Below the pieces are notes generated by a model. It was not told the DNA's origin. It saw only the letters and a program-made list of their open reading frames with translations, and searched no databases. Shown piece after piece: positions 12,949 to 37,986 of a DNA stretch of 37,986 bases (its first letter is position 1; each line of letters begins with the position of its first letter). The stretch comes from a virus. The stretch lies in the IMG/VR virus record IMGVR_UViG_3300042343_000772, positions 1-37,986 of that record; one strand, written 5' to 3'. The position numbers were made by a program, and so were the translations under genes.

Positions 12949-13024
12949 TATAAATGATGGAGTTAATGCTCCTTTTGCTGATTTGTATTTATTAGATTTT
13001 CCGGAGTGGTATGATGTCGAATAA
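12911..13024 (+). CDS. Small acidic protein, 37 aa
   Basis: ATG ATG at 12911/12914, with AAAGGAATTAG just upstream. Acidic residues and an aromatic end (YLLDFPEWYDVE). It lies entirely between, and overlapping, its neighbours, which is usual here. Function unknown. Confidence 0.5.
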   Translation: MMAQEESPILGSSINDGVNAPFADLYLLDFPEWYDVE

Positions 13025-21413: not shown

Positions 21414-21489
21414 GGGGCGGAAGGTAAGCCGGTTGCATCCGACACTCTTATAAGGTGTTCATAGGTTGGTTCGACTCCAACTCGCCCTA
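21414..21489 (+). tRNA. tRNA-Ile (UAU) candidate
   Basis: 76 nt. Acceptor GGGGCGG (21414-21420) pairs with TCGCCCT (21482-21488), with two G-U pairs, discriminator A. T arm: GTTGG, loop TTCGACT, CCAAC. Anticodon stem ACACT/GGTGT with loop CTTATAA, giving anticodon UAU, which reads the AUA codon. The D stem is imperfect (G-C, G-C, then mismatch). CCA is not encoded. It may help translate the AUA-rich island genes. Anticodon reading is inference; a tRNA scan would decide. Confidence 0.72.
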
Positions 21490-22270: not shown

Positions 22271-22622
22271 GGGGGCGAAAGGTATCGACAGGTAAATAGA
22301 GATATGGATGGCATCGACTGGTTGAATAACAGGCCAGTATAAAAGTTATTCAAAAAATGTTAATTGGCGAAGTAAATCTCGCTCTCGCTGCCTAATTAAT
22401 TAGGTACGAGTGGGGCTATATGGGCCTTATTACCCAATCATATTGACTCAGATAATTCTGATAAGGAAGTCTAACCCGAAAACATAGGCAATGATCGTAA
22501 TCGATCTGATGAAGATAATTCTTCTAGGTTTGTCTAATGTCCAAATTACAATAGACTAACGATGTAGATGTTTATATTGAAATTACTCTGGACGCGATTT
22601 TCAAAGATCGCCGCCTCCACCA
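22271..22622 (+). ncRNA. ssrA: Transfer-messenger RNA (tmRNA)
   Basis: 352 nt. The 5' GGGGGCG pairs with CGCCTCC (22612-22618) to form the acceptor, followed by A and an encoded CCA; GGTATCGACAGG after the acceptor is the tRNA-like D region. The T arm uses GCGAT/ATCGC, with a longer-than-usual loop (TTTCAAAG). The tag frame is predicted at 22366-22395: GGC GAA GTA AAT CTC GCT CTC GCT GCC TAA, giving tag GEVNLALAA, where upstream TTAATT resembles the E. coli resume signal. The stop lies in a 14-nt palindrome. tmRNA with SmpB rescues stalled ribosomes and tags proteins for proteolysis. Confidence 0.95.
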
Positions 22623-37124: not shown

Positions 37125-37158
37125 AAGACAAGACTTGGAAATGATTTGGAGGTTGATT

Positions 37159-37440
37159 ATGGCTGAAGTTACTACGGTTGATAAGCAGAGTCGTGTTCGT
37201 TGCAGTGACGAGCAGTTCCTTGAGGCGGTTTTCTCCAGCAAGACTTATGCTGAGATTGCCGTTAAGACTGGTCAGAAGGTTGCTAGTACGATGGCTCGTT
37301 ATGCTCGTACAAAGTCCGCTCTGACCAAGAAGGGTATTGAACTGCCCGCTATGGAACGTGCGAAGCCAACCAAGACGGTTGACAACGTAGAGGCTATGGC
37401 AGAGGTTGTTCGTCGCCTCAAGGCTCATGCGAACGGTTGA
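37159..37440 (+). CDS. Putative HTH-like small protein, 93 aa, strongly expressed
   Basis: TTTGGAGG lies 6-7 nt before ATG 37159. The sequence SDEQFLEAVFSSKTYAEIAVKTGQKVASTMARYARTKSAL reads like a helix-turn-helix: two helices, the TYAEIAxKTG turn, and a recognition helix with Arg. A basic C-terminal helix follows. Its GC content and G/C-ending codons are much higher than neighbours, suggesting strong expression. Possible phage regulator or DNA-binding protein. Confidence 0.72.
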   Translation: MAEVTTVDKQSRVRCSDEQFLEAVFSSKTYAEIAVKTGQKVASTMARYARTKSALTKKGIELPAMERAKPTKTVDNVEAMAEVVRRLKAHANG

Positions 37441-37453
37441 TTAAAACCAAAAG

Positions 37454-37534
37454 GGTGATCGGCTACAATAGTTTAAATGCTTGAGGCACACAAAAGATTC
37501 AACCTCAAATCATTGATTGTTGTAGTCGGTCACT
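37454..37534 (+). ncRNA. Long hairpin RNA just upstream of the split tRNA
   Basis: The outer arms GTGATCGGCTACAAT (37455-37469) and GTTGTAGTCGGTCAC (37519-37533) pair over 15 positions with three wobbles. The stem can extend inward through 37473/37515. After small bulges, an inner 6-bp stem TTGAGG (37481-37486) / CCTCAA (37503-37508) closes a 16-nt loop. The base lies 4 nt before the tRNA. No open frame. It could be a processing signal, antisense target, terminator-like block or independent small RNA. Confidence 0.7.
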
Positions 37535-37538
37535 ATAT

Positions 37539-37813
37539 GGGAGCGTAATCCAATGGCAGAGATAAAGGACTTGAACTAATGTAAATTTGAGTGCTTAAAG
37601 GGAAACCTTTAATGTAGAACCTGTCAAATTCGGTGAAGGCTTAACTGCTAATACCGAGCCAAGCATAGAGATATGAAGGTGTAGAGACTTGACGGCAGGA
37701 ACCTAAGCGAAAGTAATGGTTAAGATAAAGTCCAGACTACAAACAGAAATGGTAACGAAAGTTATAGTAGTAAGAAAATCCTTCAAGTGTGGGTTCGAGT
37801 CCCACCGCTCCTA
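37539..37813 (+). tRNA. tRNA-Leu (UAA), split by a group I intron
   Basis: Exons 37539-37572 and 37775-37813. Acceptor GGGAGCG pairs with CGCTCCT, discriminator A; T arm GTGGG-TTCGAGT-CCCAC; anticodon stem AAGGA/TCCTT. The joined loop CTT+AAAA gives anticodon UAA, reading the Leu codon UUA. The variable region is only CAAGT (5 nt), whereas bacterial tRNA-Leu normally has a long extra arm. D stem is a weak A-T/T-A/C-G. CCA is not encoded. It would serve UUA-rich genes of this phage. Confidence 0.85.
37573..37774 (+). other. Group I intron (IC3-like) in the anticodon loop
   Basis: 202 nt, beginning G after exon U and ending in G, as self-splicing requires. P1: exon ACTT (37569-37572) pairs with GAGT (37589-37592), with the splice-site U facing a G. 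P7: GACTT (37686-37690) with AAGTC (37728-37732). Core blocks AATTCGGTGAAGG, ACCGAGCCAAGC, TAGAGACTTGACGGCAGG and GATAAAGTCC follow the order of cyanobacterial and plastid tRNA-Leu(UAA) introns. No open reading frame. Boundaries inferred from tRNA folding and the U/G rule. Confidence 0.88.
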
Positions 37814-37846: not shown

Positions 37847-37986
37847 ATGAGCAAAAATGTTTTAGAACTATATAAGATTGGCAGTAAAGTTAAGTTGACG
37901 GGAGAAGGTACTGAATCTATTTATGGAAGTATTATTGGTATTAATATAACTGGAGATAATACAGTTACCTATTCTTGTGGCTGGTG
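37847..37986 (+). CDS. Small hypothetical protein (partial, C-terminus missing)
   Basis: GAAAGGA lies 6-7 nt before the ATG. The visible 46 residues (VLELYKIGSKVKLTGEGTESIYGSIIGI...) look like an SH3-like beta-barrel start, as in small phage proteins with IGxxVKLTG. It runs off the window. First gene after the split tRNA. Confidence 0.6.
   Translation, partial: MSKNVLELYKIGSKVKLTGEGTESIYGSIIGINITGDNTVTYSCGW

Follow-up and report, generated by a model that had tools for sequence, protein, structure and literature searches.

Near the 3′ end of the IMG/VR virus record IMGVR_UViG_3300042343_000772 (the window, 37,986 nucleotides (nt) long, is the stretch analysed here), a tRNA-Leu(UAA) gene with a short variable arm is interrupted by a 202-nt group I intron. 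Comparison with related phage sequences leads us to read the intron as mobile, its host tRNA as functional, and the locus as one reshuffled by homing-type gene conversion, a reading to which we give a probability of roughly 0.7. Underlying it are the anatomy of the gene and the covariation of the intron, the occurrence of four allele states at one locus, the near-identical flanks that surround swapped alleles, and the presence of HNH genes both in long introns and beside the tRNAs.

A tRNA-Leu(UAA) gene split by a group I intron

In plain mode ARAGORN missed the tRNA-Leu gene, and in intron mode it returned tRNA-Leu(taa) with a 202-nt intron and joined exons that form a complete cloverleaf of 73 nt. 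The parts of the gene are as follows.

37539–37572, + strand: 5′ exon of tRNA-Leu(UAA), with the acceptor 5′ strand, D-arm, 5′ half of the anticodon stem, and C32, U33 and U34 (ARAGORN intron mode, alignment with relatives)
37573–37774, + strand: group I intron, 202 nt, no open reading frame (ORF), final base G (RF00028, precise absence in the nearest relative L308, covariation)
37775–37813, + strand: 3′ exon of tRNA-Leu(UAA), with A35 and A36, 3′ half of the anticodon stem, variable region, T-arm, acceptor 3′ strand and A73
37589–37591, + strand: GAG of the internal guide P1, paired to exon CUU (37570–37572); the pair at the 5′ splice site is U·G, and all 39 introns keep this P1 unchanged
37684–37690, + strand: 5′ strand of P7 (R element); helix 8, 100% paired, with a compensatory A-U/U-A change in 13 of 39 introns
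37728–37733, + strand: 3′ strand of P7 (S element), from the covariation alignment

The splice sites were placed by P1, in which exon CUU pairs with GAG and a U·G marks the junction, and by the last intron base, G (37774). Spliced in this way the exons are predicted to read ...CUUAAAAUC..., with the anticodon UAA divided by the intron after U34 (37572) into U34 and A35 A36. The variable region consists of 5 nt, CAAGU (37784–37788), and so lacks the long arm of a canonical bacterial tRNA-Leu; the discriminator A73 lies at 37813 and no CCA is encoded. An original prediction made from the letters alone had proposed this 202-nt intron after U34, and its coordinates agree with P1, the terminal G and ARAGORN's intron mode; the complete cloverleaf and the short (class I) arm that it described were likewise recovered, the latter by direct reading. 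Splice sites yielding another anticodon would have counted against it, and the anticodon came out as UAA.

A search with the Rfam group I covariance model, which that prediction had called for, gave a match to RF00028 at 37563–37755 above the curated score (53.8 bits, gathering score 50, E 4.4e-11). From an alignment of 39 related introns of the same kind we derived a structure comprising P1, P2, P3, P4, P5, P6, the P7 pseudoknot, P8, P9 and the exon stem, 53 pairs in all. Covariation extends over P2, P3, P5, P7, P8, P9 and the terminal hairpin, and 29 of the 53 pairs show changes on both sides. Pairing is kept in 97.9% of cells, against 80.2% with shuffled partners and 31–41% with slid ones, and 0 of 500 shuffles reached the observed level. 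Since the 53 pairs are kept to this degree, 29 of them have changed on both sides, and the window intron folded alone gives z −2.4, the intron is, as judged from sequence, a conserved group I ribozyme and not a chance resemblance. It has the P1 with U·G at the 5′ splice site, the P3–P8 core, the P7 pseudoknot and the terminal G of that class, and the predicted P1, P7 and core blocks thus hold up, with P1 invariant and P7 always paired.

The lack of an ORF and the small margin over the Rfam gathering score could instead point to a decayed relic that no longer splices, in a tRNA pseudogene. We regard this as very improbable: the core helices are all intact and covarying, the splice-site pairs are invariant, and a relative (L083) has exons identical to those of the window around an intron that has diverged.

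Four allele states between nearly constant flanks

To follow the locus blind to both intron and tRNA, we sampled it through the small conserved protein gene upstream.

37135–37440, + strand: conserved small protein gene used as locus marker, at most 101 amino acids, start likely inside; upstream of the tRNA

This gene had 216 confirmed relatives in IMG/VR, 80 of which were kept, and in 75 of these a tRNA-Leu(UAA) follows after about 100 nt (76 of 81 loci with the window included). The 76 loci fall into four states: short arm without intron (36), short arm with intron (17), long arm with intron (18) and long arm without intron (5). A tree built from the upstream kilobase (52 distinct rows) requires no fewer than 13 switches between arm classes and no fewer than 12 changes in whether an intron is present.

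Individual pairs of contigs place these changes between flanks that have hardly moved. The nearest relative of the window (L308) is 99.1% identical upstream and precisely lacks the intron, and its tRNA exons are only 92.2% identical, less alike than either flank, as expected for co-conversion. A short-armed intronless allele (L315) and a long-armed allele with an intron and an HNH gene (L316) are 100% identical over the 1000 nt upstream and diverge from the 5′ end of the tRNA on, differing in tRNA body, intron and downstream HNH gene; a third state, short-armed with an intron (L321), has 98% upstream identity to both. Two intronless alleles, one long-armed (L348) and one short-armed (L347), are 99.1% identical upstream. 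Intron-plus and precise intron-minus alleles thus coexist at one locus, and one intron type occupies an identical site whether the phage tRNA-Leu body is short- or long-armed. Together, the shared site in both body classes and the near-identical intronless alleles bear out the proposal that the intron moved into a phage tRNA. The result is a natural allele series in which the flanks are constant and the arm is short or long.

HNH genes and probable homing-type conversion

Introns of 650–780 nt in tRNA-Leu genes carry HNH-type ORFs with weak Pfam HNH matches. Free-standing HNH genes, of the intron-ORF type or of a second, zinc-ribbon type, lie between the tRNA and the downstream gene at 13 of 23 long-armed loci but at 3 of 53 short-armed ones, and two of those three are remnants (Fisher p 0.002 with near-copies removed, relatedness uncorrected). 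The remnants, one of 16 codons and one of 38 and representing the two HNH types, sit just downstream of intronless tRNAs with short arms (L341 and L351) and are likely scars of lost endonuclease genes.

We propose that the ORF-less intron between U34 and A35 would remove itself from the precursor, leaving a tRNA that would read UUA after leucylation by the host leucyl-tRNA synthetase (LeuRS). Between nearly constant flanks, the tRNA body, the intron and the downstream free-standing HNH gene would come and go: an HNH endonuclease, encoded in the intron or free-standing in relatives, would cut alleles that lack it, and repair would copy in the donor's tRNA and intron along with adjacent exon sequence, in whichever direction the swap ran, while the phage keeps the locus occupied by a tRNA-Leu(UAA). 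Homing-type conversion is the most likely driver of the allele exchange suggested by these comparisons. The arrangement recalls T4 SegB and the inheritance of the T4 tRNA region, as well as the collaborative homing of the cyanophage psbA intron with F-CphI, in that a free-standing nuclease lies beside a tRNA or intron site and alleles are replaced with conversion of their flanks. It differs from both in the HNH type of the putative nuclease, in its confinement to a single tRNA-Leu locus, and in the exchange of two structural tRNA classes.

Several observations weigh against this account. In the window the intron contains no ORF and no HNH gene adjoins the tRNA, and for several of the HNH proteins the Pfam scores are near or below the cut-off. 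Some swaps are between two intronless alleles, and not every long-armed allele has an HNH gene close by, so homing by HNH nucleases is not demonstrable for every change. One pair (L312 and L314) shows the opposite pattern, with a body identity of 98.6% and an upstream identity of 92.6%, and co-conversion is therefore not seen in every case. All locus data come from metagenome contigs, in which single cases could be chimeric joins, although several allele states recur in independent contigs, which speaks against chimeras. As a minor weakness of the tRNA itself, the D-stem has 3 pairs and a C13·A22 opposition and the acceptor ends in G1·U72; both features are also present in other short-armed phage tRNA-Leu.

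The swaps between intronless alleles would also fit a different selective account, in which body swapping is selected because it evades host defences: by alternating its variable arms and anticodon-loop precursors the phage would escape putative tRNA-cutting host nucleases, and homing would just supply the variation. A host nuclease that cuts the variable arm of tRNA-Leu is an assumption of this account, which we think unlikely. In its fuller form, which we put forward just as tentatively, a single phage tRNA locus would act as an allele-switching cassette in which homing nucleases and a group I intron keep exchanging tRNA-Leu(UAA) bodies of different structure, long-armed or not, an exchange kept by selection through escape from host nucleases that cut the variable arm or the anticodon loop.

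The intron belongs to a phage group

The original prediction had taken the intron, though not the tRNA body, to be cyanobacterial. trnL introns belong to group I subgroup IC3. Much of the resemblance is real: cyanobacterial and plastid tRNA-Leu(UAA) introns share with the window the anticodon, the site after U34, the P1 pairing of CUU with GAG and the core motifs, and 27 cyanobacterial trnL introns have the same insertion site (GACTT | ... G | AAAATC) and the same core. On alignment, however, the two form separate sequence groups. In an unrooted intron tree the 27 cyanobacterial introns lie on one side of a 100/100 branch and the phage introns on the other, a coherence of the phage group that is favoured by its having been gathered with a phage-like pattern; the phage introns are not nested among the cyanobacterial ones. 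The cyanobacterial comparators came from a class-wide RF00028 search, an earlier DNA-pattern search having given mostly chance matches. The phage introns do not separate by arm class: those of short-armed and of long-armed bodies intermingle in the tree, where strong branches force at least 8 label changes. Rooting with phage tRNA-Arg and tRNA-Lys introns failed because of long branches.

The nearest sequences to the window intron are other phage tRNA-Leu introns, to which it is about 93–94% identical. In contrast to cyanobacterial trnL introns (230–368 nt here), phage introns are mostly 196–212 nt long, also occur in short-armed tRNAs, and in some cases carry HNH ORFs. The site and core might still suggest that a trnL(UAA) intron jumped from a cyanobacterial host gene into an unrelated phage tRNA, but the closest introns are phage introns, the cyanobacterial ones form their own 100/100 group, and psbA was not found in 11 related phage contigs; we hold such a jump to be improbable. 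By sequence the window intron is a member of a group of phage tRNA-Leu introns that is set clearly apart from the sampled cyanobacterial trnL introns, and what stands of the cyanobacterial claim is the shared site, P1 and core, not a direct origin. Because the tree is unrooted, there may have been an ancient transfer between phages and cyanobacteria in either direction.

A pattern scan of IMG/VR for the 3′ part of the intron joined to AAAATC, in which the exon bases beside the splice site are fixed by the pattern, found at least 119 viral stretches. Most of those listed are tRNA-Leu(UAA) genes whose intron measures either about 200 nt or 650–780 nt, and among the matches listed the arm is long in most and short in 22; a few listed bodies are labelled Tyr, Phe or Ser because ARAGORN places the junction one to three bases off. 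A 2014 review placed all phage introns then known in protein-coding genes, despite the many phage tRNA genes (PMC3984707), and the open-access literature yielded no description of a group I intron in a phage tRNA gene. The junctions recovered here, nearly all of them from tRNA-Leu introns, stand in contrast to that picture.

When positions 13000–37986 of the window were compared with isolate phages in a near-identity search, the intron region alone matched (LR756501 and LR756503). Named phages that have the tRNA-Leu(UAA) arrangement, with the same intron type and site as the window, include the huge 735-kb phage LR756501 (78.5% identical to the window over 230 nt), LR756511 and Agrobacterium phage Atu_ph07. 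Unlike the window's, their tRNAs are long-armed (class II), and the LR756511 intron, 700 nt long, apparently holds an HNH-like ORF, which the window intron lacks. As to the host, the terminase encoded on a related contig resembles those of Microcystis phage MaeS and Bacillus phages at 26%; a Gp23 search matched nothing, its controls included, and is uninformative.

Other introns were noted in passing. The 484-kb phage LR756508 encodes a tRNA-Lys(UUU) and a tRNA-Arg(UCU), each with a predicted intron of 175–193 nt and a group I-like core (L008 1325–1593 and 1724–1975), with a HEARO element near these tRNAs. An annotated tRNA-Arg of Microcoleus phage My-WqHQDG (L004 1313–1598) measures 286 nt owing to a 213-nt intron with a group I-like core, and a marine autographivirus contig has two group I introns around capsid ORFs (L005 1448–1628 and 2157–2337).

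Probable leucine identity of the short-armed tRNA

Intronless relatives of the spliced tRNA are common in phages, so a short-armed tRNA-Leu(UAA) does not depend on the intron; it is an already established type in T5-like phages and cyanophages. Full-length identity to the tRNA body is 82% in P-SSM7 and 81% in P-RSM6, both Prochlorococcus phages, and about 77% in hundreds of further records, most of them T5-like; these share the anticodon and a short variable region and, unlike the window, have no intron. The GenBank record of the T5-like phage BF5 describes tRNA-Leu2 as a reader of UUA that an anticodon change turns into an effective amber suppressor. In P-SSM7 a gene annotated as tRNA ligase follows the short-armed intronless tRNA-Leu (L130 602–1273), which hints at tRNA repair.

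The E. coli LeuRS recognises A73, A14, A15-U48, G18G19, A20a and tertiary contacts, and a long variable arm is not crucial (2023 review, PMC9976931). All of these determinants are retained in the window tRNA (U8, A14, A15-U48, G18G19, A20a and A73). The 17 short-armed bodies with an intron were selected independently of the D-arm; 13 of them carry the full set and the remaining four have G15, whereas among 487 other short-armed phage tRNAs only 3 carry it. Counting A20a in short-armed tRNAs that lack an intron is circular, since the search pattern had fixed this stretch of the D-arm. Among the Leu codons of the phage UUA is the commonest, accounting for 175 of the 468 counted. In three phage enzymes it falls on an aligned Leu at 11 of 18 positions, no worse than the 15 of 36 for other Leu codons. 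A bacterial LeuRS was not found in 11 related contigs.

Given the known intronless phage type, the retained determinants and the alignment of UUA with Leu, the tRNA probably has an ordinary leucine identity and reads UUA, and it is probably charged by the host LeuRS. The missing long arm, unusual in a bacterial tRNA-Leu, might mean that the molecule is charged with a different amino acid and recodes UUA, or that it has a regulatory role. We give such roles scant credence: besides the determinants and the codon alignment, sister phages have a long-armed tRNA-Leu(UAA) at the same locus, and the T5-like relative is annotated as a UUA reader convertible to an effective amber suppressor. The unusual identity that had been offered to explain the short arm is thus not borne out, and of the earlier interpretation as a whole, mobility into a phage tRNA survives while a direct cyanobacterial origin and an unusual identity do not.

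Neighbouring elements and other RNA genes

Two further elements flank the tRNA gene.

37453–37535, + strand: hairpin immediately 5′ of the tRNA, conserved and covarying; compensatory change at 13 of its 18 pairs (35 sequences)
37847–37986, + strand: downstream ORF (MSKNVLELYKIG..., running off the window), 33 nt after the tRNA; an HNH gene intervenes in many long-armed alleles

The hairpin is present at the loci compared, has a conserved interior (GAGGCACAC...CAACCUC), and matched no Rfam family. Elsewhere the window encodes a tmRNA (22271–22622, + strand, 84.5 bits) and a tRNA-Ile with anticodon UAU for AUA (21414–21489, + strand), AUA being the commonest among eight codons counted.
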